A DNA stretch of 64,000 nt from Tribonema minus (lineage: Eukaryota; Sar; Xanthophyceae; Tribonematales; Tribonemataceae): contig JAFCMP010000013.1 of NCBI GenBank assembly GCA_017506865.1, positions 124,001 to 188,000 on the forward strand, read 5' to 3'. Each line of letters starts with the position of its first letter. Position 1 is the first letter of the stretch. Positions 6,055 through 63,764 of the stretch are shown here, piece after piece. Under the pieces are notes generated by a model, which was not told where the DNA came from, did not search any database, and worked only from the letters and a program-made list of their open reading frames with translations. The translations under genes and the position numbers were made by a program.

Positions 6055-8216
6055 TTATCCCCCATTTTTGCCTTTTTTTGTTCCCTTTCGTGCGGATTTG
6101 GGCCCCCTTGTGAGGCTGGTAATCACCCCATGCAGTATGCCCGCCTCCGCCTGTGACATCTGCACTCTGCTGAGCATGCCACGCAGCTGTAAGTACACGC
6201 TCTCGCGATGCTGCGGCACCGGCTGGAATTCATTCTCATCTAGCGCCGTCTCAAGCCGATTACACAGCGCGTCTAAAACCCCTTGCTCCGCCAGCTGTTG
6301 CCCCCCTCGGACAACCATAACCCCCTCGGCACCCCCCTCCCCTCCCCCTTCACCACTCCCCTTGCTCGCTGCGTGCGCTTGCCACCACTCGTAGGAGAAC
6401 AGATTAACTGCCTGCGACAGGTTGAGGCTGGAGAATGCCTCAAAGGTGGGGATCTGTATGAGCGCTGCTGCGTGGGCCAGGTCAGCATTGCTCAGACCTG
6501 ACGCCTCAGGGCCATACAGCACGCCCGCGCGATCCGAGGGCGCGGCGGCGGCGATGGCAGCTGCTGCGCTGCGCGGCGTAGTGACGACGCTAGTCTGCGC
6601 GCGCAACGCAGAAAGGCGGCAGGAGCGTCAGCGAACGTCGCTGAAGGAGCTTGGGGCATAGTGACAGTACTATGTAGTCATCGAGAGGAAAGCAGTTTTG
6701 CCCAGTGAACAATGACGCTTGCCTGCTGCGCTGCGCGGCGTCGTGACAACACTCTCCGGCGCGTGCAACGCGGAGACAGCAGCAACGCTCAGGGAAAAAG
6801 ACGAAGCTTGGCTGCAGCACTGCGCAGCATAGTGACAGCGCTCGTCTGCGTACGTAATACGGAGGCGCACGGCAGCGGCGCACTGAGACGTTGACAGAGC
6901 GCGCATGCCTTCAGGCATGAGCGTGCAGCCATGCGCCTTTGGACTGCTCCGGGAGGGGTCCAGACAATGTGAACTATATAGGGCGTATGCCCAGCAGCGC
7001 CCAGGGATCAGTGCTCAGCAATGAGGGCGATACCTCTCGACGGTGTTGTGGTGATGCTGATCTGCGGCGCAAGAAAACATCGCTCCACACGGGTGGCAAC
7101 AGCGATGACGGGGGCAGCGCTCTGTGGCACCGCATCAGCACTGGTCTGCACGCACAGTCGCGTGTAGTGGAAACTGTAGCAGCTATGATTGCGCAGACAT
7201 GCGCAGCACAGGGGGCAGCACCGCGCCAAGCAAAGGACGAGGATGCGGGGCAGTGGCGCATGGTCATCATGTGACAACGCGCATCTGCGGGCAGGGACCG
7301 CAGCACCACAAAGCGGCAAGGGGGCAGCCGGCAGTCCCTTGGCAAGCTGTATGCAATGCAGCCCCTTCAATACAGAACACTGGTGACCACTACATACTGT
7401 GCATGACAGATATCGCATCTCGTGGCTAAACGCGTGTTGTCAGGCGAAGGGGAGGTCTTTGGCCGCCCGCCAACCAAGAGTTGTCAGCTGGCGTCATGAG
7501 ACCGCTGTGATGACGTGTACCCGCGCGCACACGTGCAGAGGCAAAGCTGCCGGACACAAACATGGTGGCTGTCAATAGATTCTCTGGAAGTACATTTAAC
7601 TTCAACTTCGATCCGCTGCCACCTGCTTGTGTTGACTTGCGTCCCAGCTCTTAAACTTACGTTTACTAAATTCATTCATCAAGCCTCCTGTCCAAATCAT
7701 CAGTTATCAGCAATTGCACAACCACATCCTTACCATGTCTCTGGCCCTCGCCGTAGTTGCATATACGGAGCTCAAATCTGCAACAGCTTTAGCCACCGAG
7801 GCAAAGCGCTGCGCCCCCCGCAGCACCTCCTCCGCGCCAGCTGCTCGCCTCACAGCCGCCTCGTCGAGGGGGTCGCACCTCGGCTCCACCAATCGCAGCT
7901 CAGCTAGACCAAAGTTCAGCATAGCCCTGGCGCAGGCTCCCACATTTTCGCTCAGGGTTGGACGTACCAGGACGATGACCGGAGCAGAGGCGCATTGTTT
8001 TCTGGCTAGACGCACGGCATCGCTTTTCTTCACAGGTGCTGAATGCATGATTGCCTCCGCAGGATTACCGACGGCACCGTACAGCTTGGCGAGGTCGCTG
8101 GAGGCACTGCGTCTTGGTGGCCTTGATGCTGTGTGTAGGACGCGAAGCGATCTTGTACCAGGGAGTGTTACAAGGCTAGCGAAGAGAACAGCCATCTTCA
8201 CCCTTGCAGCTGCCAT
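6055..8216 (-). CDS. trmJ: TrmJ/SpoU-type RNA 2'-O-methyltransferase, probably organellar
   Basis: There are two exons, 8216-7734 and 6594-6055, giving about 340 residues. The donor is ATG|GTAAGG and the acceptor gcgcgcag|ACTAGC; both sit in phase 0 and join RARDM to TSVVTTPRS. SPOUT trefoil-knot motifs are clear. Motif 1 is VIVLVRPTLSENVGACARAM with NFGLAELRLVEP after it, then YATTARARDM. Exon 2 holds GVLYGPEASGLSN and IPTFEAFSSLNLSQAVNLFSYE, the AdoMet-binding loops. The C-terminal helices (RGMLSRVQMSQAEAGILHG) match the TrmJ tail. TrmJ methylates ribose 32 of tRNA. The start could be Met at 8216 or 8195; the leader (MAVLFASLVTLPGTRSLRVL, then Arg-rich) looks like a transit peptide, so plastid or mitochondrial action is inferred. 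Confidence 0.85.
6550..6880 (-). repeat. echo array of the trmJ exon 2 acceptor
   Basis: The working junction (about 6560-6620) is repeated at about 6720-6780 and 6815-6870, with weaker traces to about 7290. Each copy keeps the ctgcgctgcgcggcgtagtgac-like exon start and the flanking Cys/Arg-codon-like intron end. Confidence 0.6.
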
Positions 8217-9046
8217 ACCAGGTGCCAACGAGTGATCAACTTCCACTTCAACTGCTTCTTCAACTTTTTGGGCAGTTGTGAAGGTTTTTAAGTGAACGGG
8301 GGGGGGGCTGAATTGGAAGCAGTGACTGATTTCAGGTGTGAAGGGGTGTCTGACAGTGCAGCATGCGATCCCACTGCGACAAGTCTTTGGGCTGCATTCT
8401 CCTGTGCGCCGCTCCCAGCACCAGGAAGTCAGAGCACTCAAAGATCAAGCAGCATGTGACATGGCTCAGCACGAGGTGACATGCCTCAGCGCGAGCTGTC
8501 ACTGCTCATCAGCTTGAGCGCACGGTGACACTGACACTGCGTGACTCACGATGATTTGCACGGTTCATCGCATGGTGACATGGCTCAGTGCAAGATGATG
8601 CTGCTCGGCGTAGGTAGAACATGCCACCGTTGTTTGCACACATGCAGCAGGTGACATGATGCAGCCTCAAGAGGCACGTTGAGCTTCACCTTGATTTCAA
8701 TGCCACTGCGCATGCAGGCATCCTTGCCTCACAAGCATTTTGAAAGCTGCCACCTGTACAGGCAACAACTAGCCCAAGCAATCGCTGGAAAACACTGCAT
8801 GGAAACAACTGAAGAGTCAGCTTTGATAAATTCATTGCCTGCCGTGTTGCTGTTTGTCACCGGGAGCTTTCCCACCTGCAACTGTCCCCACACTAGCGTT
8901 GACCAAATGTAAACACTCACCGCCAGTGTGTCACGTGCCCCATGTGCACTGCAACGCCCTAGACTACATTGCAGGCGCCCCAATCAATGATTGTGTGTCT
9001 CCCGCCAGCCCTCCGAGAGTCTGTGCGGTGCGCAACGCGACTCTAC
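8217..9046. other. 5' flank of trmJ; degenerate short repeats
   Basis: Between about 8440 and 8600 the motif gtgacatggctcag recurs loosely four or five times. I see no gene. The 3' ends of nothing obvious lie here except the armadillo gene at the right border. Confidence 0.4.
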
Positions 9047-10329
9047 TCACGACTCTACTCCCGCAGCGTCCTGCGTCCGCGCTGCAGCAGGCCGTCGATC
9101 AGCCTGCCGCCGTGCCACACTGCACGCCGCAACAGGCTGGCGCACCAGCGCTGAATGCGCCGCAAGAGGGGGCGCCGGGGCGTCACGGATGAGCACTGCT
9201 GCATCTGCAGCGCACTCCTGTATGTCCGAACTGTGCGGGTGCGCGCGCATCGCATCGGCCAGAGCTTCCAGCGCGTTGCACCCGCGCAGCTGCATGCGCG
9301 CGCCATCGATGCGCGCCAGGGCTTGAATGACGTGGATGCCTGCTTGCTGCACGCCTGCATCCTCCCCGTGTGTATTCATTGCTGCCACTACGGCAGCGCC
9401 GATGTCCCCGAACTTGGCCAGGGCGTTCGGGCAACTGCACAGCAGCTCAGCGACCGTGATGAGGGCGCCCTGGATGTTGAAGGGGCTCTGCTTCCAGGTG
9501 CTCTGCAGGCCTGTTGTGAGCAGCTCGCACGCACCCTGCTCAAGCAACCTCGCCCTGTTGGTGCTTTGGCTCGTGGCCAGGTTCAAAATGAAGGCAAGTC
9601 CGTTGCGCTGTATAAACGGATGTGTCGGGTGGGCTTGCATGGCTGCAATGATGGCCCGGTAGACTCCTGCTGCGCCGAGCTGTTCCCTGTTGGCATCAGT
9701 GACTGCCGCACTTGCTATCGCCGCAAGCCGTTGCATGTGGATATCGTCACTGCCAGACTTCACTCCGCGCAACGCTTTGCGTGCCTCAGCCTCGCCAAGT
9801 TGATGCCGGTGTGCAGCCCTCTCACTGCTTAACAGTAGCACTGTCGCCTCTGCGCGTGCAAGCTGTCGCGCCCTACGTCGGCCTGAAGCACACTGACGAG
9901 CCCCTCGCAAACGCCTGAAGCCAGTAGGCCTGCCTGGTTTGATGAATATTGTGCCAGCAGTATAATGGAGTCTGCTGCAAGCTGAAGTGTCTCTGCGTCC
10001 CTGAAATGGTGCAGCACTGCCGCAGCTGCTTGGCACGCTCCCGCCTCTCCCAGTGCTGAGCAGTTCGCCTCATCGGCATAAGCAAGGTGCCGAATCACTT
10101 GCACGCCATGCCGAGCCTTACTAGCGTCGACAACGTTAAGCTGCATGACTGCCACTACCGCGTCACAAACTCCTGCCTCCCGGAGCTTGAGCTGGCGCTC
10201 CGCCATCGCTTCTTTGACGAATTGAGCTTCCAACAACTCTAGCACAGCGCGTAGGCCCCATCGTGCGACTGTGACGCTGTGCGGATGCGCAAGCATGCAT
10301 GACACCGTCGCCAGGCAGGGGTCGTTCAT
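9047..10329 (-). CDS. armadillo-repeat protein (one apparent frameshift)
   Basis: The protein begins MNDPCLATVSCMLAHPHS at 10329 and runs through seven or so armadillo-like repeats (GEAGACQAAAAVL, LGAAGVYRAIIAAMQAHP, LEQGACELLTTGLQSTW, FGDIGAAVVAAMNTHGEDAG). Total length would be about 425 residues. Near 9870, after GLVSVLQADVG, the frame shifts by one base and then stays open to 9047. The paralogue at 3.5-4.7 kb shows what is expected across this point, so the shift is a mutation or sequence error rather than a missed intron. Role unknown; armadillo repeats bind proteins. It is the better kept member of an inverted pair. Confidence 0.6.
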
Positions 10330-11177
10330 GCTCGAGTAGGCTGTGCTTCACACAGTAACTCGAACCTTCCCTTTCAAACTGAGAGAAGGCAGGCTGCTAA
10401 TTCCTCAACAATTTAAAAAATCAAACCTCGACCAAGTCAGTTCAGCTGCTGCCGCCTCTGGCTCGCTCACTACCCCTTTTTGAGGTCATGATGTGCAAGA
10501 GCATTGCATCATCCTTGCTACAGTCACCTGCTCTAGACCCTTTCTCCTGCTTACATGTATGCCTGAATTATGCTCAAAGTGAAGCCAGGGGTCATTAGCC
10601 TTGCAGTCATGAACAAAGGCAAAGCAGAGTGAAACTGCGACAGTGCACCAGTGAGACCACAAGCATGCTGGATCAAAAATCAGGTTCATCTAGATTTGCA
10701 GACAGAAACATGCAGCGGCCAATACTAAGTGCGCGTCAAAACAGCTGCCGCTCCAGAGTCACCACCAGCGGTCACCTTCAAGGCAAACCGGGCTGGGATA
10801 GCCCCAGAGGCACTGTCCAAACAACACACAACGGGAAGTTGCGGCGGCTGCACAGAAAAACTGTACTGAACGCGGAGAGAGGTGAGGCTGGTGCTGCGCA
10901 AACGCCGCCGAAAGCGGGCCGACTGACCCTGCAGCAGCCGCCGCACGTTGACACGTGGTCATTCTGCAGTGACAGTTCCAAATTGAGAAACCGCCCGCAT
11001 ACAAAACACGCGCGCGCGTGCGCCGCCGTTGCCGCTGCGCCAGCGAGCCCATTCCTCAGCACACCAAACACCTCGAACGTTGAAGGCTGCGGTCTTGATT
11101 GTGGCGTACAGTACAGAGTGAGGCTGGAGTTGTTTTGTGTTGTTTTGTGTTGATGAGGTGGGTAGGTAGGTATGCAC
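10330..11177. other. no gene seen
   Basis: This lies between the armadillo gene start and the CHCHD2-like stop codon, both on the minus strand, so it holds the armadillo promoter and the CHCHD2-like 3' flank. Several frames are open on both strands but none has a recognisable product. Confidence 0.4.
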
Positions 11178-13752: not shown

Positions 13753-14812
13753 GATGAAGTCTCTCTTGTCTCTTGCTGATTAGCTGCTGCTGCTTGCTTG
13801 CCGTAAGGCTGAACTGGTGTGATCACGAGGCACCCACAAGTACATACCCATCAAAAGTGGATCGTTCCAGCACCTATCCGGCAGCCCTAATAACAGTGTT
13901 CTAGAAGCCGAGAGAGGCCTCTAGAACTGCAGGTCATGTCAAATCGCTGGACATACATCAAACGCATACGGTCAGGAAAGCAGTGTTGCACTTTCACTGA
14001 AACATGCAGCTGCAAAAACAGACACCTCATCAGGACCAGCGTGTTGACCTTCTCGTTATGGGTACAGTAGTTTCAATTGACAGGCTTCACGGACCACTTG
14101 CCGCAGCACTGCTGCCATGGGGAATGAACAGTTAAGCTAGGCTACACAAACTCAAAGGAAAATGATCGACCGGCACCGCCATCACGAACCCTCAACAGTT
14201 CCCCCACCCTGTACCCCCTTTGATGAAGCTCATGGACGCAAAGCCGCTGGCTACTGTAGTTCAACTGTGACGCTCACGTCCGTTGAGACGGCTTGCACTT
14301 GCTGTGCAAGGACGGGCTGGTCACCTCTACGTATGCACCCTCGAATCACGCATTCCCACCCCGCCCATATGACTATACTTGACTCAATGTACAATGCGTG
14401 CCTAAATAGAACACCCATAATGAGCTCGCGGAGTGGAGCCGCTAGCCCCCTCCCCCCAAACATTACACCCCTGACGCCGGCCAGACACTATTCTTGCACA
14501 AGGATGTGTGCAAGGCAGTGCGCGAGGGACGCAGATACCAACCGACGTGAACCCTAAGACTGCTCGCACATGAATGGGCGGCCAAAAGGGGGGATAGGCC
14601 GGGGGGGCACCATGCTCCGCCTTCACCAGACAACTTCCCCAGACGACCTCGTTCAGCGTCTCCGAGGAGGGGCGAGGGGGGGGGGGGGGTAAACACCTTT
14701 GAGCCTCCCCCTGACACCCCCACTCCGCTGGTGCGGGGCAGAGAAGGGGGAAACCACCATGAGCCTCCCCCTGACACCCCCCTCAGCCCCCCTCCCCACC
14801 CCCCACCCCGTT
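13753..14812. other. CHCHD2 promoter side and bZIP 3' flank
   Basis: The right part (about 14580-14812) is very C-rich on the plus strand and contains a duplicated block, gagcctccccctgacacccc at 14701 and 14761, 60 bp apart. It lies just past the bZIP stop codon and is probably its 3' untranslated region. No gene seen. Confidence 0.4.
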
Positions 14813-45400: not shown

Positions 45401-48400
45401 AAGCATGCGTTTCGGCATTTGTTTTAGAATTTGTGTAACGCTCTCACCGTTGTGAGATCAGCTGCTTCCAATTCTCGCAATACGCGGTCACTGCCGACGG
45501 CAAAGACGGCGCTGCCGCACGACAGCGCGCAGGAAAACAGGGTCCCCTTCTGAATGAACTCACCTGCACGCGCAAAGCAGCATTGGCTTGGTGAGTATCG
45601 TGTGCTCGCTGATTGCTCGAATGCCAGTCTGAAATTGCATCACAAATGGAACCGCAAGGCGCGTTTGGGCAGTAGCAGCACTTGATGTTGTAAATGAAGA
45701 CTTTGAATCTGACTCACCGACTCTCTCGGCCTCGTCCACGTCCCATTTTCTGTGCAAAGCAGCACTGGGTTAATGGGTATCTCACTGGTTGCTAGATTGA
45801 CGGTCTTGCTTGCATTGCAAATGAAACTGCAAGGCGTGCGTCTGGACATAAGCAGCACTCGAAGTCGTGCGAGTGCTGACTCAGAGTCTGACTCACCAAC
45901 TCTCTTGGCCTCATCAACATCCCACTGGTACACGGCGCCGTCCTGCCCGCACGACACCAGCCGCGCATCGTTCTTCTCCCAACGCACGCTGCGCACCTGC
46001 CAGTGAGCAACAAGCAAGAGTTGGGGGTTAGGGTAGGGGTAAGCCTACAAGCAAGGGAGGACATGAATCACATGTTGCGTGCTGTGTCAGGGTGCGCGAA
46101 GCGGAGTGCATTGCGGTGATAGGGTCAGAGCTGGGAGTAGAGTCAAGGTTAGGGTTAGGCGTAACCCTAAGTCTAACCCTAATAAAGTAGGTAGCAGCGC
46201 AGCGATCGTACACAGAACGAACTGTTTACTTAGGGTTTGGCTGATCGTCACCGTAGGGTTAGGTGTCTGCCGCTCATCGTTCTTATCCCATCACACACTG
46301 TGGACCTGTCAGATCCCTAGGTTAGGGTTAGGGATAGGGTCGTTGGTCGGGTCTGTCTGCGATGGATAGGGTCAGGGTCAGGTCTGTCTGCGTGGTCTTG
46401 CCAGCGTACGAGGGTTAGCGTTAGGGTTAGGGTTAGTGTGGAGCATTCTACCGCAGTATTCGCGCCACATCGTGGAAGTGGAAGCAGCGGCTGCTATAGT
46501 AGTACTACGGCTGCTATAGTAGTGCTAACGGGTGCGCATGCGATGCCATGCGTGTCCCTGGCCTGAAGCGCGTGCCTCGAGCTAACCCTAAACTTGGGGT
46601 TTTGATGGAAGTTGGAAAATGTGGATTGTGTGCGTAGTTTTGTGCCCCTCAGCTCCGCCAGCTTGTCGAGTGTGTAGGCCTTGAGCTACCCTACACTCGA
46701 TTGGCATGACCTACAATCAATTGACATGGCAGGTAGAATCGGAGTAAGGGTTAGGGCTAGGAGTGTGTGCATACCTTGCCGTTGTGCCCCCTGAGCTTCG
46801 CCAGCTTGTCAAGCGTGCAGAAGTAATGTTAGAGTTGAGGTAAGAGTTGCGGTTGAAGATGTATATTTCAAGCACCCACCTTGCCGTTGTGGCTTCTGAG
46901 CTCTGTCAGCTTGTCGAGTGAATAGACCATGAGCCCAACCCTTGCCTAAGTAGTGCTTCTACACTAGGTTTGTCTCATAGGATTGAGCTCAGAGTTGTTG
47001 AAGAAGTATACTTCAAGTACGTACCTTGCCGTTGTGCCCTCTGAGCTCCGCCAGCTTGTCGAGCGTGCAGAAGTCGAGCTAACCCTAACATCAGGGTTGT
47101 GATCACAACCAGGATTAGGGTCAGGAGTACATACCCTTCCGTTGTGTCCCCTGAGCTCCGCCAGCTTGTCGAGCTATAGAAGTCGTAAAGATCATGTTGT
47201 TTCCAGTCTAGATCACTACTTCTACTTCAGTCTTGGGCATTGAGGTCAGAAGGACGGTCGAATATGTGTACATACCTTGCCGTTGTGCCCCCTGAGCTCC
47301 GCCAGCTTGTCGAGCGTATAGAAGTCGTAAAGGGAGATCATGTTGCCGCTGACAGCTGCAATAAACTGCCCCCCCGTGCTGAACCGCACTTCGCGGCACT
47401 GCTTGATCGGCAGCTCCCTGCGTCAGTGATCACCGCAAGCGGTTTAGTCATATGAGGCATGTAGGTAATGGACCACTTTGAACTGTTCACGCGTGCTGAA
47501 CTGCGCCTTGTGGATAGGCAGTTCCCTGCACCAGTGATCAGCGCAGCGGTCTCGCCATTGAGATATGCCGATAACAAAGCGGGTGATTGTAGGTTTTCCC
47601 CACACCTCACGCCACTGCTGTTCCCTGCTACAGAGATCAGCGCCTAACCCTAACCCTAACCCTCAATCAGCCCTTTGTTGATCTGCCAGGAGCTTGAGAG
47701 CCGGGGTACACTCAGTTGCAGTTGTCATTGGTATTGCGTGATGCCGGCCATCCTGCCTACTGCAAATTTGAAGTAGGTGCAAATCCCCGAGGCACCGCGT
47801 GATACGTAGCCTCCCGCAGCAGCAATCGGCGCATTACTTCATTTCTCGAGGGTCAAAAGCGGGGATGCACAGTGTTTGGCTGCGATGAGACCTGGTGCTT
47901 CAGGGCAGGTTAGTTCCCCAGATGTGATTTTAGTATACATACATGTATGACTCTCTGTTGTTGCTCTTGCCTGCATACGCGCAAATTGTCCACCACAATA
48001 TATATATTTAAGCTACACGCTCTTGCTTGTGGGCCTAGAGGTCATCCACCAGCATGTGCATGAGGCGCAGCATGTCGCTAGAGCCAACTGCCGCGTGCTG
48101 CCCGGAGCGGCGCAGCGCCATACGGTATGTATTACACTTGAAATCAGCCCTTGCATACTTCATGAAATATACAATGGAGTATATTAGTATGTAGAAATGT
48201 ATCACTCTTGCCTGTACGCCCGCAAGTCATCCACAAGTATGTGCATGAGGCGCAGCTTGTCGCTGAAGCCGACCGCCGCATGCTGCCCAGAGGGGTGCAG
48301 CGCCAGGCTGAACGGTTCCTCAGCAAAAGAACGCGCCAGGATCAGTCTGTGCTCGGAAAAGTTCCAGATGCGGATGCTGCGGTCCAGAGAGCTCGTCGCC

Positions 48401-51400
48401 ACAAGGGACTGTGAGCAGCGCATCGCAAGGCGGAGCGCGCGTGAGAATCCAGCCCTAGCTATACATACGTGCAGAGCCGCGCTCATTGAGATGTGACGTT
48501 GACTGCACGCTTGAATGATGCCTCAGACAGACGAGGCAGCACGAGGTTTAGAAATTGTGCAAGGCGCCAAGGAGCAGCACAGACAGCTCGGCATGACGGA
48601 AGAAGCTGAGCAGCTGCCACTGGAAGACTGAACACGCTCAATTGTGTTGGTAGCGCTGTCCAGCCACGCTGCGCGCTGCTGTAACTGCCAAACCTGCTGC
48701 AAGTGCCAATGGAGCTCGTTGGCACGAGCGACTGCGCACTGCAGATTTGAAGTTAGGGTTAGGGTTAGGGTTAGGCGGGGCGTGCAAGCATAGCCCTAAG
48801 CACAGAGCGCGCTCATCGAGACCGAGCATGCGCAACACTGCTGCAGAGCACTGCTGCGGCCACATGAAGCAGTCACATATGGCGGCCCGACGCTCGCCTG
48901 TCAGTTGCACGCACGCGGCTAGCCCTGTGACGTTGCTGGGGCCATGAATGCCTACCTACATAGTTGGTCTACTGAGTGTCAACCCTAGCTTAGGGTTAGG
49001 TTAGGGTCGCCGACGCGTCACGGGCCTTTTTTAGAGACATCTAGCCTGGTGATGCTGCCGGTGCCATGGAAAACGAGATCACTCTGGTCAGGGTTGAAAC
49101 CAGCACCTTCAACAAGCACTCTGCACAGCACTGCTGCAGCTAACGAAGCGATGACCAATTCTGCTCACCTTTCGTTCACATATATCTAGCTCTGTGATGC
49201 CGCCAAGGCCATGGAAGGGATGCGCTTAGTGAGGGTGAGGGTTGAGATTAGCACCTTCATACCACTGCTGCGGAGCGCTGCTGCAGCTAACAAAGCGATG
49301 ACCGACACTACTTGCCTTCCGCTCACATTTGAAACCCAACACCTTCAAAGTACTGCTGCAGGGCTGCTGCGACTGTGCGAAGCGATTACAAAATCTCACC
49401 TTTTGTTTGCATACATCCAGCCCTTTGATGCCACCGGGCCTGTGGAAGGGATGCGCCTGGTTAGGGTAAACGTCAAGATCAGCACCTTCAAAGCACTGCT
49501 GCAGGGCACTGCTGCAGCTAGCGAAGCAAGGACCGGCAGCACTCACCTTTCGCTCGCATACGTCTAGCCCTGTGATGCCGCTGCGGCCATGGAGGGACGC
49601 GCTTTTTGAAATCAGCACTTTCAGAGCACTGCTGCGGAGCGTTGCTGCAACGCTCCTTGCCTTCCGCTCACAGTTGGGACCCAATAGCAACAAGGCACAA
49701 CTGCAGCTGTGCGAAGCGATGACTAGATCTCACCTTTCGTTCGCATACGTCTAGGCCCGTAATGCCGCCAGGGCCGTGGAATGACGCACTCACTGGCTGC
49801 CAGTCTTCGTCTCTGACAACATGGCCCGTCACCACGGTCATATACAGCTGTGGGCGCAAAGAACGCGAGGTGCAGTTGCACGAAGTCGGTTACGAATTGT
49901 CATTGGCAAATGCACATGACAAGTACACAGCTGCGGCACAGGCGAACACGGGAAAGAAGGTATTGGACAGAGTTTGGCAGCGCTCATGTACAGCTGTGGC
50001 GCAGGCAAGTGCAGAACAAGGTAGGGGAGGGGGGTTGGCAGCGTGTGTTGAAACGTTGAAATTCAAATGCTATGAGCTATGTAGCGAATGTGATGTAGAA
50101 CAATATTGGAACGAAGGAGTCTAGATAGTACCATGATGAAAGCAGAACAAACAAGCATAAATATCTCTTGCCTCGCCGCCTGCCCTAGCCCCGTCCGTGA
50201 CCTTACCTTAACCCTAAGCCTAACCCTGACCCAAGCAATGACTGCGCACTCTCGCGCTTGGAAGGCGACCAAGGAAGTAAAGCCACATTGTAGCACCATT
50301 CAAACGCTTTTAATGCACTTTTTTTTGAAGTATGGCGGAAGCAGTCACCTGATTCTGATTGGTCACGGCGCACGGGCGCGAGACTGGACAAGAGTGCCAT
50401 AATGGCAAAATGCACAGAGCACTTAAACTAGAACTGTACGTGGTTCTGATTGGTCGCTGTGCAGAGAAGCTCCTTGTCGAGGCACAGAGCGAGGCACGTC
50501 CCCGCGCCCCACAAATACAGCTACAATACACATAGTTATTGAAGTACCTGTCTCATGAGTCCTTGCAGTTCACCTTGGAATATAACTTGAAGTACCTGGT
50601 TGTGGCTGGTCGCCGCGCACAGGCGTTCCTCATTGGGCACAGCGCGAGGCATGTGCCCGCGCCCGCCCCCTCCTCACGCTCCACTAATGAGCATGACGAA
50701 AACACTTAGCTCACATGATGCTTCAACTTGAAGTATGAAATTCAACTCAAAGTACATACTTTCTTCAAGTTGAAGTACCTGATTCTGATTCGTCGCCGCG
50801 CACAGACGCTCCTCGTTGGGGCACAGCGCGAGGCACGTCCCCGCGCCCACCCTCTCCCCGCGCCACGACCGCATCACCATGAACGCTTGAACTTAGATGA
50901 TGCTACCACTGGAAACAGCATGTACTTCAAGTACATACTTCAACTTGAAGTATTTGATTGAAGTTGAAGTACATACTTCAACTTGAAGTACCTGATTCTG
51001 GTTGGTCGCCGCGCACAGGCGCTCCTCATTGGGGCACAGCGCGAGGCACGTCCCCGCCCCCGCCCCCTCCCCGCGCCACGACCGCATCACCGTGAACACC
51101 GGCACCTTCGCGCCAGCGTGCGAATATGTATCCGCAACCAGCGCCAGGACGCGGTACGATCCGTCCGAAAACGCGGCCACGAAGCCCGTGCTACTGCTGA
51201 GCAGCGCTGTGACGGCGGCGCCGCCCGCTGCGGCGGCGGCAGCGCTGCCGCTGCTGCCGACGCTGCCGCTGCTGCTCGCGGCTGGCGCTGCTGCGGCGTC
51301 TGCGGAGCGGCGGTGGTGCGGCGTGGCGGAGGTGTATTGGAGAAAGGATTTACGTGCAGATAGATGCGAGCAGCGCCAGGGGCAATTTGCAAGCGCTGAA

Positions 51401-54400
51401 GGTGATTGCATGCCGGACGCTGCGCTGGTGTCGATCGATGGCGTGATTTTAGTGCGGCCATGTGCTGCTGCTGCTGGGGCGGCGGCGGCGGCGGCTGCAG
51501 TGGCGGCGGCGCTGCCGCTTCTGCTGCGCTACACGCACCTGATTGTTTTACTGGTGGCGCTGCAATCAGGGGGAAACAACCGGGCACCTTGGGGTGTGCG
51601 TGCAGCAATGCGGGTAGCTCTACGTTCAAACACTTGTTCACGAACACAATGCGCGAAGCCAAATTGGTGTGCTGGGCATGCCGGTCTAGAATTAATACAG
51701 AGTAGTAGAATTTTGAGTAAAATTAAAGAGTACATTAAGGCAAGCTTGGCCTCAATCAAAGCCCTCGGGGGCGTTCTTGCGCACTCAGCGCGACTTCATT
51801 AGAAAACATTCAGGCAACTTCGAAGGGCACCTGTGCTGCCAGTGATGCGGTCCATGGTGCACAGAAGTTTGCCGCCCCGGAAGAGCAGCAACGCGCCGGT
51901 CTAGAATTACCAAGGAGTACATCTTAAAAGGCAAGCTTGGCCTCAAAAGTTTGGGGGCGTTTTGGCGCCCTGAGCGCAAATTCCTTACAGAAGCAATCAC
52001 GCAACTGCGAAGGGCACCTGTATTGCCGGTGATTGGGTCCATGGTGCACAGCAGCTTGCTGCCATAAGTAATGGCATCCAATTGCAACTGCACACTTACC
52101 TCCACGTATACACTTCCGCATAGTGGCAGTACCTGTGCTGCCGGTCATGGGGCCCATGGCGCCGCGGAACAGCAGCAGCGCTCCGGTCTAGGATTAATTT
52201 TAAAAGAGTAATAATTAATTTTGTTTCAACTTAAAAGAAGTACATTGAGGCAAGCTTGACCTCAAAGCCTTGGAGGCGTTTTCGCGCCGTGAGCTAGACG
52301 TGATTAGAGATACATTCCTGCGCAGAACATACCTGTGCTGCCAGTGATTGGGTCCATGGTGCACAGCAGCTCGCCGCCCAATACAAGGCAAGCCTGACCT
52401 CACTGATCTGGGCGTTTTTGTGCCCTGAGCGCCAATTCATTGCAACACATTCCTGCGCAGAACATACCTGTGCTGCCAGTGATGGGGTCCATGGTGCACA
52501 GCAGCTCGCCGCCGCGAAAAAGCAGCAGCGCTCCGGTCTCGGTGCCCGCGACCACGCAGTCAGACGGCGCGCGCAGCCAGCAGTGCGCGGTGAATATGGG
52601 GCTGATGTCGGTGCGCGGCGCCGGCATCGCGCGCACCTACAGGCGGCAGCAAGGGGCAACGAAGCGTCGTCGTTGCAGTTCAGTACGTCCATTTATAGTG
52701 ATGTCTATGACATTTAGAGCCCTTTGCTGAAACAGTCGACTGAAAAGCGAGCACTGTGCGCAGTCAAGGCGCAACTGTCGGTGCGCGGCGCCGGCATCGC
52801 GCGCACCTACATCGGTAACAGGAGGTGCCAAAGCATTGTTGTTGCGGTCAAGTACGTCCTTCTGTGAAGAACTTGGAAGGATCGGAACATTCTATGGGTC
52901 AACCAAGAAAGCATGTTTTGAAGTGGGTTTTGCGGTGCCTAAGTCCGCAGTGCACGGTGAAGACGTAACTGCCGCAACTGCCGTCGGTGCGCGGCGCCGG
53001 CATCGCACGCACCTACAAGGATTAACAGGGGGCAACACAGCAATGTCATCGCAGTTGAGTCCCTCCATCTATTAAGTGGTGTTTTTTTGACATGGAGAGC
53101 CCATTGACGAAGCAGTCGCCAGCACCATTTGCGGTGAAACGAAACTGCCGTGACTGTTTGTGTGTGCTGCTGGCACTGCGCGCACCTACTGGGAGTAACA
53201 AGGGGCAACAAAGCATTTTTGCTGCAGTCAACTATGTCCGTCCCTAGTGCAGCTGTCGCATTTTGCGACCCATTCTTGGAATGGTCAACAGAAAACATAC
53301 TTCGTCTTGAGGGAAGATTGCTTTCCGACAGTTGAGCGATCGGGAGTACTTCAACCCGAGGTTCACGTCTGGGTAGTGAGAGCTGGCGCAACGGGTCCTG
53401 GTGACGATGTAGCTGCCATTTGTGTGCGATGCATGCAGACGTGGCCTCACTGGTGCATACGGAAATTCACACAACAATGCTCAGGTTGAGCTCCAAGCAA
53501 TCTACGTTTCCAAGCAGACGTGAAGCAGCACGAGGGTTAGGGTTAGAGTCAGGCTAACCCTAAGAGCGACATGTGCTGGCTGGTGTAGTGGCCACTCTGT
53601 GTAAAACATCCGCATGAGAGCGAGAACGGCATCTGCTAGGGCGCATTCCAACTTTTACATTGCGTCCAACATTGGCAAGCCAAGGCACTCCCGCAAGCAG
53701 CAACGCTCACGAACCCACTGCTGAGCAGCATCGCTCAGCGACATTCAGGGAGCAGCACTGCTCAGCAACGCAGCCATTTTGCACAGGCCGCGTTGCACAG
53801 CGGCGTTGCACGAGCAGCATTGCTCAGCAGCTATGTAGCATCGCGCGGGCTTTGCACAAACAGCATTGCTCAACAGCAGCGCACGGACACCCACCTCGTT
53901 GTCGGCGAACCTGTAGAACCGCAGGGACCCCCCAATGGTTGTGCACAGGAGCGACGTGTCCAATGGGCTGCGAGGGCACGCATGAAAGCGCAGCGCAGAT
54001 GAGGTTACAGGCGTTTCTGGTCGAGGGGGAGTCAACTTTTGAAGTTTGATGTGGTGACAGGGCATCTTTTCCAGTCCAGCGGCACGTCAGCTGTTGCAAC
54101 AGGGTACCAGCGGAGAGCCACCTTTCGCGGCAAGACCATCCTGCTTTGCGGTCCCAGCGGAGTGTCTGCTGTTGAAGCAGGGGGCACAGGCCTCACGGGT
54201 ACAGGGTTCCAGCGGAGAGTCAACTCTTGAAGCAAGAGTGAACTCTTCAAGCAATTTGAGCATGCTGCTTCAAAGCGGCGCCATTGCTGAAGCGAGCCAG
54301 TTCCTCAGAAAGCATGCGGGGATGAGAAGGATGCCTGGAGTTTCACATGAAAAATATCAAGGCCACCTACAGGTGGCGACAGGACACACATATTACGTAC

Positions 54401-57400
54401 TTCCATGATGACAACAGCACGGTCTGGCTCACATATCATTGGCGAAGATGTATATTTACGGCTCCAAGCGCGTTTGATGTCAAAGTATAGATTCGAGGCA
54501 CATGGAAGTTCAGGCCCAATTCAACTACAAGGAATGGAACTTGCGAGTCACAAGTGCCTGAAAGAGCAGGCGCTGATGGTAGTATACTATAGCGTGGCAT
54601 GCTGACTGAGCAGTCGTTGACGGGATATGCATAAAGAGTTTGACTTGTAGAAAGAGTCTGACTTACAGCAAGAGCTTGACACACAATCAGAGTTGAGAAC
54701 TCTGAATCCCAAATCACGAGTCACAAGGACTTGAACAAGCAGTCGTTGACGGGGGTGCTACACATGAGTTAGAAAAGATTATTTCAACTCCGAGAAGACA
54801 TTGACTCGCGAGTCGCAAGTACCTGATTGAGCAGTCATTTATGGGTGCATGCAGGAGCAGTCGTTGATGAGTAAGACTTCGACTCATGAGTCACAAGTAC
54901 CTGAAGGAGCAGTCGTTGATGGGGGTGTGCGGCGCGCCCTCGCACGCGCTCGCGGACGCCACCACACGCGCCTTCGCCCACGCCCAGATCGTCAGTTGCC
55001 TGCATGCAAATGCAACGCTCAGTGTGAGCACACACACCATCACACCGTTACATCGCTCAGCACTGGCGATGTTGCAGCGCTCAGAAGAAAAAAAACCACC
55101 ACACTCACGCGCCTTCGCCCATGCCCAGATCGTCAGTTGCCTGCACGCAATCACAACACTCAGGCGCTCAGCACACACACCACATCACACCGTTGCAGCG
55201 CTCGGCGTAGGCAATGTTGCAGAGCCCAGAAGACAAATAGCGCGCCTTCGCCCATGCGCGGATCGTCAGTTGCCTGCACGCCGTGGCAGCGCTCAGCGTT
55301 GAGCAGACCGTCACACAGCGCTCAGCATTGGCAATGTTGCAGCGCTCAGAAGAAGAAGAGATGCTCACAGCGCAATGCCGCAGCAGCGCTCGGCGTTCGT
55401 GTGTCGTCACAGCGCTCAGCATGAGGGCGCGGCATCACCGCTTAGCGCACATACGCTGCGACAGTGCTCAGCATACATGCGCTGTGACAGCGCTCAGCGT
55501 ACATGCGCTATACTAGTACTCAGCTTAAGCGCGCCGTGAGACTACAGTGCTCAGCGTAAGCTTCTGCACAACTGCAGGCGCCGTGTGCCGTCTCACGCGC
55601 CGGACCATAAAGGCGCTGCTATGTCATCCTTCAAAAGTGGTAGGTACGTATGGTGTGGTCAAACGCGGTCAGCAGTGCTCAGCGCGAGCCGTTGCCACTT
55701 TTGCATGGCTGCACGCAGAGCGCTGTCGCGAATGGCGCTGCTGCATACAGATCCTTGCAACGAGAGTACTCACATAGTGCCGTCACCATGCGCTATAATG
55801 ACTTTTTATTTATTCTCGCTGAGGCAGCCCGCCCAGGCAGAAGGCAACGCTCAGTATCGCACTCATGCATACCACTGCGAAATTTCAAATTGAAGTATAA
55901 TACTTCTGAAGTATGTAAAATTGAAGTACGTGACAGCGCTCACCACGTCGGTGGCCCGCCCAGCGTCAACAGCAGGTGCGAGTCATGACTGAAGGCAACA
56001 CTCAATATCGCCTTCATACTACTGCAAAAGTGAATGCAGTGACTAAGCACAATTGAAGCATGTGATAGCGCTCACCAGGTGGGTGGCCGCAGCGTTAACA
56101 GCAGCTGCGAGTCATGACTGAAGGCATCGCTAACTATCTACTTGTCGCATTTACTACCTCAAAATTGAAGTGTAAATGACAGAGTCAATGCTTCAAAATT
56201 GAAGCAGAAGTATATGACTCACCCTGTCGGCGGCCCGCCCAGCGTTAACAGCAACTGAGTCGTGACTGAAGGCAACGCTCAGTATCTCGCGCCCGTCCTA
56301 AAACTGCGAAGTTGAAGTGAACTACTTCAAAGAATGTAAAATTGAAGTATGCAACAGTGCTCACCAGGTCGGTGGCCCGCCCAGCGTCAACAGTAACTGT
56401 GAGTCATGACTGAATGCAACGCTCAGTATCTCGCGCCCGTCCCCCTCCCCTGCCGCCACGCTCTTGCGCTTACGCAGCGTGCGCAGGTCGTACAGGCTCA
56501 CCACCGCGCGGTCGCCTGCTTCCGCGATGGCCACAAACCTGCATTTAAGGTGAGCGGCCGTTTCAATCTTAGTGTAATGCTCAGGGTTAGTGGGGCAGTC
56601 CCAAGGGGCAGCGTGCGCAGGTCGTACAGGCTCACCGCTGCACGGTCTAGCGCCTCCGCAATGGCGACAAATCTGCAGATGCAGCGGCAGCAGCGCTCAG
56701 TAAAGGTCAAGTTTTGAAAGCGCAGGGGTCGGGGGGCGTATACATTGTACAGCCCCCAATTTTAAACGGCTGAGGCATAGTGATGAGTCGTACAGGCTCA
56801 CCACCGCGCGGTCTCCCGCCTCCGCAATGAACACCAACCTGCAGAGCGGCAGTTGCGACAGATTGCGGGGATAACTTGCGTGAGGGTGGTTGGGGGTGCA
56901 TATAACCCCCTGTTTGAAGGTGCCGAGAAGTGGTCAAAGCGGGTCAGTTTGTGGCAAGCTTGAGGTACGTTCCACCGCGCGGTCTCCCGCCTCCGCTATG
57001 GCCACAAACCTGCAGATGCAGCGGCAGCAGCGCGTGTTGAACTTTGAGTGTGCAGCTGGGTGGGGGGGCGTATACAGCCCCCCGTTCTAAGGGCGGAGGC
57101 GAAGTGATGTGTTGACGTTTGTGAGCTGGCCCTAACCCCAGCCCTAATCCTGAGCCTAATGTCAACCTCACCCCAACCCTAACCTAAGCTCGAGGTGTTA
57201 GGGTTAGGGTTAGGGTTAGGTTAGGCCGCTTAGGGTTAGGGTTAGGGTTAGGGTTACCGCGCGGTCACCAGCCTCCGCAATGGCCGGAAACCCGCAGAGC
57301 GGCAATGGCGCAACGGTTGGAGACCTCTTATGTCAAGGGGTCAGACATCCAGCCCTTGTTTGAGGCTGGTGAGAGAAGTGGTCAAATGGGGGCATTTGGT

Positions 57401-58693: not shown

Positions 58694-58873
58694 TCTGTGC
58701 TCGTCGCGTCCGCGACCTGCTCAGTACCGTCCGCACTCCAGCTCGCCTCTGCCTCCGGATCCGTTTTACAGTTACGAACGCAGTTGAAGTTAAACCTGAA
58801 AGAGAAACTGTGTCTTTTGCTGGACCCGTGCTGTGATATAGAATCACACCTGGTGTGCTGACCGAAAAACGCC
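58694..58873. promoter_or_regulatory. divergent promoter region of CFAP57 and FNTB
   Basis: Only 180 bp separate the CFAP57 ATG (58693, -) from the FNTB ATG (58874, +), so both 5' untranslated regions and a shared promoter must fit here. I see no convincing TATA box. The left half is GC-rich and the right half moderately AT-rich. Confidence 0.6.
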
Positions 58874-61800
58874 ATGGAGGAGTACTACAAGCGACTGGAG
58901 GTGCAGACAGATGGCTGCCCCACCCGCACCACAGTGGATCAAGCGGAGTGCGAGCGCACCTGCACCGTGAGCATGCTACCACTGCACATGGACGATCTCT
59001 CGGATCAGGAGGTGCTGGAATTCCAGAACAGGGGCATTCTGAACGAGTCCGGCGACATCGTGCTCATGAGAGCCAAGCACATTGCCTATCTGCGCAAAGG
59101 GCTGAAGGTGCTGCCAGCGGGCTTTGTCGCACTCGACGCCAGCCGACCCTGGATCATCTACTGGATCACCCACTCCCTGGATCTGCTCAATGCCCTGCGC
59201 TCAGATGATGACGCAGCCATCATAGCCACACTGGCCAGCTGCCAGCAGCCCACGGGAGGGTTCGGCGGGGGCCCCCAGCAACTGGCGCACTGCGCTCCCA
59301 CCTACGCAGCGGTGCTGACGCTGCTGCTGCTGGGCACAGAGGCTGCCTACAGCGCCGTGGATCGTTCCGCGCTGTACCGCTTCTTCACGTCCATCAAGCA
59401 CCCCAGCGGGGGCTTCAGGATGCACGAGGACGGCGAGGTGGATGTTCGGGGCACCTATACGGTGATCTCCATTGCAGCACTGCTCAACATCCTGACCCCA
59501 GAGCTGGTGCAGGGGGTGGCGGAGTATGTGCTGGCGGCGCAGACGTACGAGGGGGGGTTCGGGGGGGAGCCGGGGAACGAGGCGCACGGGGGCTACGCGT
59601 TTTGCGCTTTTGCCACGCTGGGTATACTCGGGCGCGCGAGGTGAGTGGCAGGATCTGTTGCAGGATTTGTTGTCTTACACATGGAGAAGCAGGTGAGGCG
59701 GACATGACTCAGGAAGAAACTTGCAGCCTCAATGGGGTGCTCACTTGGCTGTTGATGTTGATGCGATTGTCAGCGGTTGGCTTACTGCAAGTGCGACGCT
59801 CCTCCTTAACTCTGTTGCTGTGACGTGTGATGCGAGCACTGCCGCACTAACATCGCAACAGCGTGCACACTCAACGAGGGGGCTTCTTGCAAGCTTAGTG
59901 CTCTTCCATCACAACGGCAAAGCTGAAACAGGCAGCATCGACTGCTGTCTCAGGGTTGAGGTCAGGCTTAGTCCTAGCCCTAACCCATTTTGCACTTCCG
60001 CAGTTATAACTGTGCATCTCTTGCTTTGTGTGTGTTTCGTTCGTGTGTGTGTCCACATTGCAGCAATGCGCGGCTCGACTCGCTGAAGTGGTGACGTGCC
60101 ACCATCAGCGCTCAGCAACCGGTACCATGATTACGAGCGCTGTTGCCACTGCACGCAGTGCGCACGCGCGCTTTCATGCATCTACTGAGCATCTCACCGT
60201 CAAGCGGCTCGTCCCATGCTCTTGTGAAGGTTCTCTCCTCCCAGCATGGCGACTGAGCCTCGCACCGGTGTAAGACCTACATACATGCAGGCCATAAACT
60301 TATGTGCGTGTGTGTGTGCATGCCTTTACTTCGCAGCGACGCCGTTCTGGACTCTCTGGAGTGTGGTGGCTGTAACACCAATGACCTCAGCAACTGATAC
60401 CATGACTATCAGCGCTGATAACATGGCACACAGTGCTCACGCGCGCTTCCATGCATTTCAGCGACAAGCAACTTGTTTAATGCTCTTGTGTGCGTGTGTG
60501 TGCATGTGTGCGTGCGTGTGTGTGCATCCCTCTATTGCGCAGCGACGCACGGCTGGACTCCGTGGAGTGGTGGCTGTCAGCGCTCAACAATTGATAAACA
60601 ATTGATAAAGTCATTAATTGTGACTCTCCTCGAACACACTGCTGCACGCGTGTGCGCTTCCAGGGCCATCACATACTTTTGCGTGTACGTGTGCATCCCT
60701 CTTTTACACAGCGACGCGCGGCTGGACTCCCTGGAATGGTGGCTGTGCCACCGCCAGTGCTCAGCAACTGATACATGACCTAGTAGCGCTGGCGCCACTG
60801 CACGCAGTGCGCATGCGCGCTTGCACGGTTCTCTCATGCATCTCACCGTCAAGCGACTTGTCTCATGCTCTTGTGTGTGCATCCCTCTATTATGCAGCGA
60901 CGCCCGGCTGGACTCCCTGGAGTGGTGGCTGTGCCACCGCCAGATGCGCCTGGAAGGGGGTTTTCAGGGGCGCACCAACAAGCTTGTCGATGGCTGCTAC
61001 TCATTCTGGCAGGGGGGCACGCTGGCGCTGCTGGAGTACGTGCGCAGGGGGCGCATTGGGGAGGTGACGCTGCTCAGGGGGGGGAAAGAGGGGGGGGCGA
61101 TTAGGCCAGAGCACGGCGAAAGTCCAGAGCCAGGTAATTTTGAGCTGTTGAAGTACCATGATAACATTATGCTGGAGTATGTGCGCAGGGGGCGCATCGG
61201 GTAGGTGACGCTCCTCAGGGGGGGAAAAGAAGGTGGGGCGATTAGGCCGGAGCACGGCGAAAGTCCAGAGCCAGGTAACGTCATACTTCCTGAAGTCCCA
61301 TGTATGCTTGGGGAGGTAAAGTTGTGCTTCTTGAAGTGCCATAACAGTATGTTGGAATTTGTGCGCAGGGGGCGCATTGGGGAGGTGACGCTCCTCAGGG
61401 GGGGAAAAGAGGGGGTCAATCAGGCCCGAGCAAGGCGACAGTCCAGGGCCAGATACTGTGTGCTTCTTGAAGTATCGTGATAACAGTATGCTGGAGTACG
61501 TGCGCAGGGGGCGCATTAGGGAGGTGACGGTCCTCGGGGGGGGGGGGGGCTATGCGGGGGGAGGCGCGACCTGAGCCAGGTAAGAGCTTACTCCAGGGTA
61601 CTTTACCATAGTCTTACACGCTGTAGTGCTGGGCACACATTCATGTTTCTTGAAGTACATGATAATAGTATGCCGGAGGTCATCTGCGCGGAGCGCATTG
61701 GAGAGGTGACGCTCCTCGGTGCGATGCGCGCGATACGGCGCCAGCAACGTGGAGAGTTCAGAACCACAGTACATACCATGGTACAAATTGGAGTACGATT

Positions 61801-63764
61801 GGAGGGGGCGCATTTGACCTAACCCTAACCCTAACCCAAGTATGCGGAGGCGTTTACTGGAGAGGCGGACGTCACCACCCATGCTATGCATGCATGCCGA
61901 AAACAAAGTGTATCATGGCTCCTGGAGAATGGTACCGTATGGCGGTGTGCGCTTCATACAGTGGCGTTTCTTTTTTTGAGGGACACATACGCGTCGGCCT
62001 GCACAGAGGAGCAGACGGCGCAAATGCAGCGCCGTCCCGCAATGGAATTTGTGGAATCTGACTTCCTTTGCCCTTCTTTGCGGTGATCGCCTCCTGCAGA
62101 GGAGCAGATGGGGGCAGACAGACGACGGGACTGCCTTCATGCACCTACTTGGGGGTACCCACTGAAACCCATGCACGCCAACCTGTGTGTGCCCGTTTCA
62201 CCCATGAATTCATTATATATTACATGCACCAAGTGGGTCCAGCCCTGGTGATAAAAGTGTGTGTGCTGACTGTACCCCCTCTCTGTCCTGCTGTCGTGCA
62301 GAGGAGCAGATGGGAGCAGACGGTGTTACTACGTTCATGCACATGGTGTCGGCAGCGGGCAGGCGGCACAAATGCAGCGCCATTTCGTAATGAAGTTCAT
62401 GTATATGCTTACTTCCTTAGCCCTAGTTTGTGTATGCTGACTTTCTTTGCCTTGTTTGCGGGGTGATCGCCTCCTGCAGAGGAGCAAATGGGGGCCGATG
62501 GCGTGACCACGTTCATGCACATGGTGTCGCCAGCGGGCGTGCACAGCGGCGCGCTTGCCTACAATCAGCGCGACCTGCAGCGCTACGTACTGCTCTGTGC
62601 GCAGCAGCCGGAGGGCGGGCTGCGAGACAAGGTGCGCAAGCGCTGCTGAAGGTTTGGTTACTGGGAAAGAGTTGAAGTTATGGTAGGGTTAGGGTTAGGG
62701 TTCGGTTGTTGGGGTTTTGGTAGAGTTAGGGTTGCAATTAGATACAGTAGTAAGGTTAGTGACCTCCAGCGCTACGTGCTGTTTTGCGCGCAGCAGTTGA
62801 AGGGCAGGCTCCGAGACAAGGCGAGGATGGCTGCTGAAAGTTTGGTTATAGTATTAGAGTTGGGGTGATGGTAGGGTAAGGGTTGGAATTCGGCAGTAGG
62901 GGTAATGGTAAGGGTTACGGTTAGAATCAGGCAGTAACGTTTGTGACCTCCAGCGCAACGTGCTGCTGTATGCGCAGCAGCCAGATGGGGGCCTCAGAGA
63001 CAAGGTGAGCGCTGCTGCTCAGGGTTTGGTTGTTGGGGTTGTGGTAGGGTTTAGGTGGTAACGTTGTGACGCCCAGCGCTACGTGTGGCAATGCATGCAG
63101 CAATTGGAGGGCGGGCTTTGAGACGAGGTGAGCGCTGCTGCTTAGGGTTAAGGGTAGCCCTAGGCTAGGGTTGGAGGGGCATGAGCACCAGCTTCACCTG
63201 CACCGCTGCGCACTGCTGTGCGCACAGCAGCCGGAGGGGGGAACTCAGAGACAAGGTGAGCACGGCTGCTGAAGGTTTGGTCTAGTGAATACGGTTAGAG
63301 TTGGGTCATGTTAGGGTTAGGGTTAGGGTCAGGGTTAGGCAGTGGGGGTTATGGTGCGAACTAGAGTGGCCCTGCTCAAGTGGAGATGGCCCCTCACTGT
63401 CAGCGTTGCTGTTTGCACAGCGCAAGAACGTGTCAAGGTCTGGCTTAAGTCACCCAAGCAGCGATCATCCATTGTGTGCGCTCTGACCGTGAACTTCAAA
63501 TATGCCTTGAGAACTGACAGTGCCGCTCTGCAGCACTTGAGGCATAGACTTTGCCTGCGACTATGTCTGTATCCTTCCACCCATGTGCGACCAGGCCTGC
63601 ATTATGCTACTTCACGTGCTACTTCACAAACACAAATGCGCTGTCGCTCCTACCCCTAACCCTCCCTCTCGCGCTTTCTCTCTCGCAGCCCGGCAAGACG
63701 CGAGACTTCTACCACACATGCTACAACCTGAGCGGACTCTCTGTCACACAGCACTGCCTGACAG
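58874..63764 (+). CDS. FNTB: protein farnesyltransferase subunit beta (continues past window)
   Basis: Exons 58874-59640, 60898-61063, 62482-62631 and 63689-63764 give about 387 residues; the last 50 or so lie beyond the window. The enzyme transfers farnesyl to a CaaX cysteine together with the alpha subunit. Prenyltransferase QF repeats are clear: GGFGGGPQQLAHCAPTYAAV, GGFRMHEDGEVDVRGTYTV, GGFGGEPGNEAHGGYAFCAF, GGFQGRTNKLVDGCYSFWQ, GGLRDKPGKTRDFYHTCYNL. The zinc ligands are present: Asp and Cys in KLVDGCYSF (exon 2) and His in DFYHTCY (exon 4). Exon 1 starts MEEYYKRLEVQTDGCPT with a good context (gccATGG). Exon 3 is placed at cagag|GAG to keep frame; its edge is uncertain by two bases. The YFVQ-type Trp/Tyr residues fit FNTB rather than the geranylgeranyl paralogue. 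Confidence 0.94.
60060..60940 (+). repeat. echo array of the FNTB exon 2 acceptor (5 copies)
   Basis: The working acceptor (gcag|CGACGCCCGGCTGGAC at 60898) is repeated upstream at about 60060-60110, 60335-60380, 60538-60590 and 60705-60770. Every copy keeps CAG and the SDARLDSLEWWL codons to a large extent, and most share an upstream tgtgtgtgcatccctct polypyrimidine tract. Spacing is about 170-270 bp. Confidence 0.93.
61030..61725 (+). repeat. echo array of the FNTB exon 2 donor (5 copies)
   Basis: The exon end (LEYVRRGRIGE with donor GTGACGCT at 61064) is repeated at about 61170-61215, 61350-61400, 61490-61540 and 61675-61720. All copies keep gaggtgacg or taggtgacg, so up to five donor-like sites follow the exon. 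Confidence 0.93.
61990..63270 (+). repeat. echo arrays on both sides of FNTB exon 3
   Basis: Acceptor side: gcagaggagca with the following codons (EEQMGADG, and TTFMHMVS in one copy) recurs at about 62000-62030, 62093-62130 and 62295-62365. Donor side: the exon end (DLQRYVLLCAQQPEGGLRDK with GTGAGC) recurs at about 62760-62820, 62943-63010, 63070-63130 and 63195-63260. The outermost copy is preserved better than some inner ones. Confidence 0.92.

Follow-up and report, generated by a model that had tools for sequence, protein, structure and literature searches.

The stretch of DNA described here, referred to as the window, comprises 64,000 nucleotides of the forward strand of contig JAFCMP010000013.1 (positions 124,001 to 188,000) from Tribonema minus; the assembly from which it comes (GCA_017506865.1) amounts to 158 Mb and its genes have introns. 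The window contains the genes for FNTB (farnesyltransferase beta) on the plus strand and for CFAP57 and a SpoU methylase on the minus strand. At many of the splice junctions in these genes the edge of the exon, together with its splice site, recurs in direct orientation within the adjoining intron. These copies are referred to as echoes and the sequence between them as spacers. Such copies had been reported in the initial annotation, and they are confirmed in FNTB and CFAP57, and less surely in the SpoU gene, with one to five extra copies per edge. The exon borders of FNTB were fixed independently of the repeats through tblastn and spliced alignment with homologues, and those of CFAP57 through continuity with the solved CFAP57 chains and inspection of the splice sites by eye. 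The acceptor of the SpoU gene is a weaker case because its border was picked among CAG candidates for its echoes. The top-scoring named homologues of FNTB are mostly from stramenopiles (Ectocarpus, Aureococcus, Chrysophaeum, Triparma and Phytophthora), the best overall being a metagenome protein at 74%, and the presence of a CFAP57 gene suggests that the organism may be a flagellate.

Using 60-nt exon edges and a score of at least 34, 12 echoes were found at four of the six FNTB junctions and 13 at six of the ten junctions of five CFAP57 introns. In part of the counts the first CFAP57 intron was misplaced and gave no echo, and the acceptor of FNTB intron 3 was one base off in the scripts, with zero echoes counted there. 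Two more CFAP57 donors, at 50992 and 52468, have four echoes apiece. In the clearest array, downstream of the CFAP57 exon ending at 47276, the last 46–57 nt of the exon are copied five times with 85–98% identity and a spacing of 105–145 nt. Longer homology is also seen. The array of the 50992 donor holds a full-unit tandem pair of 337 nt at a distance of 183, full-unit tandem homology spans 61029–61543 around the donor echoes of FNTB exon 2, and the spacer adjoining that exon resembles those at 60110–60226 (83%) and 60386–60492 (74%). Overall a full-unit tandem pair is present in 18 of the 45 arrays in the window. When the window was compared with itself by BLAST, 178 repeat pairs were direct and 19 inverted, and 165 of the former lie within 3 kb. 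Local direct repeats are also dense at 16–18, 22–24, 32–35 and 54–57 kb, places that the initial annotation may have had in mind. An apparent GC-AG intron is seen in CFAP57 at 48211–48212 on the minus strand, the echo of its donor having GC as well.

Beyond the window, a search of the assembly with the kinesin profile (PF00225) gave 140 matches, from which 20 regions with multiple exons spread over kilobases were taken, a choice that favours long introns. Spliced alignment with the kinesins of the same genome gave 125 introns, of which 110 were retained on the basis of exon and intron length. With 40-nt exon edges and a score of at least 32, 26 of 110 donor edges and 30 of 110 acceptor edges recur in their own intron, against none of 220 on the reverse strand, one of 1100 in unrelated introns and none of 25 for segments from the middle of exons. 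Of the 20 kinesin loci 14 show echoes (13 contigs), so that the proposed genome-wide pattern does extend past the window; six loci, however, have none, and 56 of 104 introns of at least 400 nt lack an echo. When the kinesin, FNTB and CFAP57 genes were combined and two bad introns removed, own-intron echoes were found at 64 of 234 junctions, compared with 2 of 172 for the intron on the wrong side and 1 of 920 when the edge was sought in the remaining introns of its gene. This bears out the polarity that had been described, with acceptor edges echoed upstream and donor edges downstream, although the figure of 27% may be an overestimate because the loci were chosen for spread-out exons. In one kinesin intron (locus L044, 3923–5106) almost the whole of the following exon is copied (124 of its 127 nt), which would account for the wrong-side match of that exon's donor edge. 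At the same locus an echo was misread as an exon, giving a false intron at 7437 that is counted in the figures for 40-nt edges, repeat components, intron medians, GT/AG retention and 74–100% identity and excluded from those for codon position, gaps, echo anatomy and the 234 junctions; the misplaced CFAP57 intron is likewise inside the window-echo and GT/AG counts and outside the 234.

The presence of echoes varies with intron length. Echoes were found in 0 of 13 introns of 200–400 nt, 6 of 26 of 400–600 nt, 11 of 34 of 600–900 nt, 14 of 23 of 900–1300 nt and 17 of 21 longer than 1300 nt; exon-edge copies are thus present in 31 of the 44 introns of at least 900 nt. Kinesin introns with junction-linked repeats have a median length of 984 nt compared with 597 nt for those without. 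In 24 kinesin arrays the echo nearest the exon resembles it more than the farthest does (mean 0.915 versus 0.866, Wilcoxon p = 0.014), though in pairwise comparison the nearer echo is the more similar in only 42 of 65. Both observations are in keeping with the earlier proposal that introns grow next to the exon. Donor echoes lie at a median of 0.23 of the intron from the donor and acceptor echoes at 0.22 from the acceptor, rather than at the opposite end of the intron, as would be expected from the model of proto-splice-site duplication. In one intron of kinesin locus L050 (8489–8993), as judged by eye, no more than 25 nt, GTACTTCAACTTCCTGTTATTGCAG, separate the innermost donor echo from the innermost acceptor echo, as if a tiny ancestral intron had grown entirely outwards.

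In 99 echoes the match extends over 31, 50 and 66 nt on the exon side (10th, 50th and 90th percentiles; maximum 124) and over 3, 17 and 59 nt on the intron side. This differs from the 30–110 nt of exon edge noted initially, the exon part being mostly 31–66 nt. The homologous part of about 50 nt of exon and 17 nt of intron is separated from the exon's own copy by a spacer with a median of 182 nt; the median spacer is 110 nt and the median period 157 nt for the arrays. For exons of at least 120 nt, the exon part is shorter than 70 nt in 76 of 84 echoes. Identity is maximal at the junction and declines in both directions, the exon parts being better conserved than the flanks. Among young echoes (at least 93% identity over at least 35 nt) the intron flank resembles that of the junction in 10 of 21, and that of the junction or another echo in 11 of 21. 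At 85% identity or more the kinesin introns yield 32 junction pairs, and full-unit pairs are absent among them. Repeat pairs lying wholly within introns are also mostly short, far-apart copies; three are exact tandem duplicates. A partner elsewhere in the same intron was found for 64 of 99 spacers, compared with 2 of 99 in control introns, and a 74-nt filler has no second copy in the genome. A mobile filler was rejected, as two spacers searched against the whole genome matched only themselves or their own array. The idea that echoes are pseudo-exons was also rejected, AG and GT not being in excess at their exon-internal end (AG 24 of 53 against a background of 38%, GT 10 of 46 against 39%), as was an origin from spliced RNA, since in the arrays inspected by eye, without a count, the copies continue into GT or from AG and not into the next exon.

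Clustering of repeats at exon borders was assessed in the kinesin introns. Of 91 repeat components 61 (0.67) are junction-linked, against 22.7 expected when the existing components are shifted at random. The ratio of junction pairs to intron-only pairs is 1.40–1.67. A simple expected ratio of 0.12, which had assumed a 65-nt target, was dropped in favour of simulations, which are also fairer than random shifting and in which tandem duplications with the observed periods were placed at random and those that broke an exon were discarded. In runs with lengths matched approximately to the observed introns (median 721, mean 877 nt), uniform placement gave a junction-linked share of 0.33–0.40 and a ratio of 0.37–0.48 when the introns were steady, and 0.48–0.63 and 0.48–0.74 when they started short and grew; the upper 95% limits of the ratio at 85% identity were 0.66–1.17. 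The observations are fitted by a 3-fold weighting of borders in growing introns (share 0.67, ratio 1.15–1.50) or a 6-fold weighting in steady introns (0.63, 1.36–1.49), 3-fold weighting in steady introns giving 0.56 and 0.84–0.97. An earlier simulation with short introns (median 530–560 nt) nearly matched the data without any preference (share 0.56–0.59, ratio 0.94–1.58), suggesting that random placement was sufficient, but was overturned by the length-matched runs; random seeds were not fixed for this simulation or for that of full-unit pairs. Because the simulated exon stays unchanged, the runs already take account of an exon copy that decays more slowly. A turnover that is quicker for intronic sequence than for sequence derived from exons lies outside the simulations and could mimic part of the junction excess.

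These results support the earlier suggestion that DNA is repeatedly duplicated across exon–intron borders. In the reading that we prefer, though we hold it to be evenly balanced between right and wrong, introns here grow through frequent small, local, direct duplications, favoured several-fold at borders and followed by selection. Duplications that leave copies some 65–370 bp apart would lengthen the introns, and exon–intron borders would be struck several times more often than the remaining intron. A duplication within an exon would break the protein and be lost, whereas after one spanning a single border the outer exon copy would still be joined to a working splice site and the change would be neutral, stranding an exon edge and its splice site within the intron, upstream of acceptors and downstream of donors. 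Repeated events would build arrays, in which the stranded copies would decay almost neutrally while the spacers were eroded or replaced. The polarity of the echoes needs no special process, because selection removes exon-internal duplications and requires the outer copy to remain attached to the exon. It would seem likely that the junction excess reflects rate rather than detectability, and the copies may arise when staggered breaks are filled in or when the template is switched close to the border.

The simplest alternative is that tandem duplication is random, with selection and without border preference, and that the excess is only apparent, intron-only copies being hidden by the faster turnover of intronic sequence. 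The full-unit tandem pairs in the window, the shared partners of the spacers and the near match of the short-intron simulation all favour this, yet the length-matched ratios, even at their upper limits, fall below that observed, and we consider it somewhat unlikely. Several results weigh against a border-favoured duplication as well. Uniform growth falls short of the pair ratio but reaches the component share in two of three settings (0.60, 95% interval 0.52–0.68; 0.63, 0.55–0.71). Simulated duplication of whole units, run without intron-length matching, gives exon parts longer than 70 nt in 30–49% of cases, where 8 of 84 echoes reach 70 nt, a matching intron flank in 65–92% of young echoes, where 10 of 21 have one, and full-unit junction pairs at 85% identity or more in 12–40%, where there are none. 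The exon-part lengths and young flanks fit random duplication equally poorly, and heavy deletion of spacers in the simulation shrinks the misfit of whole-unit duplication but does not remove it. Finally, the excess of differences at third codon positions, which persists for changes private to one echo (0.146/0.128/0.239 at positions 1/2/3), exceeds that from neutral decay with equal synonymous drift of the exon. Given the misfits of whole-unit duplication, and as intron-only pairs are mostly short and far apart, a step that copies short tracts may be involved. If each copied tract had a fixed length of about 70 nt and borders were favoured genome-wide, exon edge and splice site would be deposited repeatedly without the remaining intron, so that both intron ends would accrete and keep a fossil record of earlier exon states; this we regard as rather unlikely. 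Copying anchored at the junction itself, with a target of about 70 nt round the splice site and unrelated or locally templated filler, through repair of staggered breaks or border-tied template switching, is distinctly unlikely. It would explain the short homologous part beside long spacers, the frequency of unrelated flanks in young echoes, the peak of identity at the junction and the single-copy filler, but shortness is not specific to junctions, most spacers have partners in the same intron and the exon-internal end carries no signal. In addition, uniform placement of such copies gives a ratio of only 0.16–0.18, so that about 60% of events would have to be forced to the border (estimated without length matching).

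It is very improbable that the echoes are functional, whether selection keeps them as spare splice sites, as decoys or as alternative edges for the exon. In 98 kinesin echoes mismatches at codon positions 1, 2 and 3 are 0.086, 0.058 and 0.180, the third positions thus differing two to three times more than the others, single-echo changes included, and there are 4 stop codons in 1368 echo codons; the better conservation of exon parts than of flanks would also be consistent with function. Splice dinucleotides are often kept, as had been stated (GT in donor echoes, 41 of 57; AG in acceptor echoes, 42 of 50), but this is close to the neutral expectation of 45.8 and 40.2 derived from exon identity. 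All 20 gaps in the same 98 echoes shift the frame, the 4 stop codons compare with 6.5–9.7 expected, and the other end of the echo shows no excess of acceptors or donors. Since the loss of GT and AG is about neutral and the gaps all shift the frame, the echoes are hardly kept as reserve splice sites, and the proposed uses in alternative splicing or in buffering mutation are not upheld. Where the third position of the exon is A or T, the echoes differ in 48% of cases, a sign that the exon itself has been changing. We ascribe the third-position excess, without proof, to polymorphism in the real exon and to its drift between copying events. The echoes therefore decay about neutrally and splicing presumably ignores them. 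More improbable still is an artefact of assembly or of mixed haplotypes: the echoes are found on many contigs as well as in the window, they are 74–100% identical to the exon edge while the spacers differ, and exon 1 of FNTB has one copy in the assembly.

Table 1. Exons and echoes in the window (window positions; identity in brackets where available; a slash marks the exon border).
Feature	Position	Strand	Remarks
SpoU methylase, acceptor echoes of exon starting near 6594	6723–6753, 6811–6845	−	border less certain
CFAP57, acceptor echo of exon starting at 44589	44827–44864	−	
CFAP57, donor echoes of exon 45448–45563	45256–45315, 45063–45113	−	
CFAP57, acceptor echo of exon 45897–45996	46269–46305	−	
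CFAP57 exon	47276–47417	−	donor /gtatgt; continuous with solved CFAP57 chains
CFAP57, donor echoes of exon 47276–47417	47135–47191 (0.98), 47025–47076, 46880–46926, 46775–46824, 46633–46678	−	
CFAP57, donor echo of exon 48212–48408	48027–48085	−	real donor of exon GC, echo GC
CFAP57, donor echoes of exon 49734–49796	49547–49603, 49400–49447, 49169–49216	−	
CFAP57, donor echoes of exon ending at 50992	50779–50838, 50596–50654, 50441–50499, 50349–50379	−	
CFAP57, donor echoes of exon ending at 52468	52333–52378, 52133–52162, 52018–52063, 51831–51890	−	
FNTB exon 2	60898–61063	+	cag/CGACGC ... GAG/gtgacg; tblastn and spliced alignment with homologues
FNTB, acceptor echoes of exon 2	60712–60757 (0.96), 60543–60577 (0.94), 60337–60377 (0.85), 60064–60104 (0.86)	+	AG before each
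FNTB, donor echoes of exon 2	61170–61204, 61350–61384, 61489–61523	+	GT after each
FNTB exon 3	62480–62631	+	gcag/AGGAGC ... GACAAG/gtgcgc; tblastn with homologues, acceptor by eye
FNTB, acceptor echo of exon 3	62302–62360	+	weaker matches farther upstream
FNTB, donor echoes of exon 3	62761–62820, 62945–63004, 63074–63127, 63197–63255	+	visible at the protein level too

Two further features of the introns were observed. The heptamers ACTTCAA and TTGAAGT occur 11–16 times more often than base composition predicts in the sampled introns (the window and kinesin loci L032–L051), for example at 50924–50991. Their cores, ACTTCA and TGAAGT, reach the highest density within the first 50 nt after donors; they may serve as a splicing motif or belong to some small element. 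Short telomere-like runs (TTAGGG or CCCTAA) are scattered through introns, as at 37668–37756, 46413–46437, 57197–57256 and 63310–63339. Elsewhere in the window, the translation of a fragment at 25380–25580 on the minus strand resembles the start of cytochrome oxidase subunit 1; searched against the assembly it matched only itself and a 43-nt neighbour, and a mitochondrial source was not found. A long open frame at 26092–28899 on the plus strand matches reverse transcriptase (PF00078) and has an alanine-rich middle. Frames on opposite strands, 3393–4673 (plus) and 9047–10347 (minus), appear by eye to be copies of one armadillo-repeat-like gene, and 9047–10069, the sole part of them that was scanned, gave a weak ARM match.

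Related routes of duplication include patch-mediated repair, as in rice, and the duplications that paired nicks cause in plants. Small tandem duplications at DNA breaks, explained by end fill-in and end joining (PMC8355091), are similarly small, local and tandem, but the echoes accumulate at splice borders over long times and full-unit homology is missing from many of the young copies. Intron gain by exon duplication (PMC2891723) also involves tandem duplication of an exon, one part turning into intron; in that case duplicated coding sequence gives rise to a new intron, whereas the echoes extend an intron that is already present, the copies of each edge lying at that edge's own end. Direct repeats near intron borders have likewise been put down to break repair (PMC11782384), although these are pairs of 4–30 bp in which the 5′ border of an intron is linked to its 3′ border, while the echoes are about 50 nt, number up to five copies and are one-sided. 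Introners, transposons that make introns (PMC12730881, PMC11782384), also add intron sequence repeatedly across a genome; they share an element at many loci, in contrast to the two spacers searched here, which had no copy outside their own array. The LRR introns of Tetrahymena grow and then shrink (PMC6564038), their growth being put down to retrotransposon insertion rather than to exon-edge copies. No description of exon-edge arrays in introns was found among the titles and abstract openings of the top open-access matches in PubMed Central.

How introns lengthen is an old question, to which transposons are the frequent answer. The arrays described here represent another route, and one that can be counted, with exon-edge copies at about a quarter of the junctions in a sample that favours long introns. 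Its exons adjoin near-identical competing splice sites, which makes this genome a natural test of site choice by the spliceosome. Should the preference for borders be confirmed, it would implicate damage or replication difficulties linked to the structure of genes.

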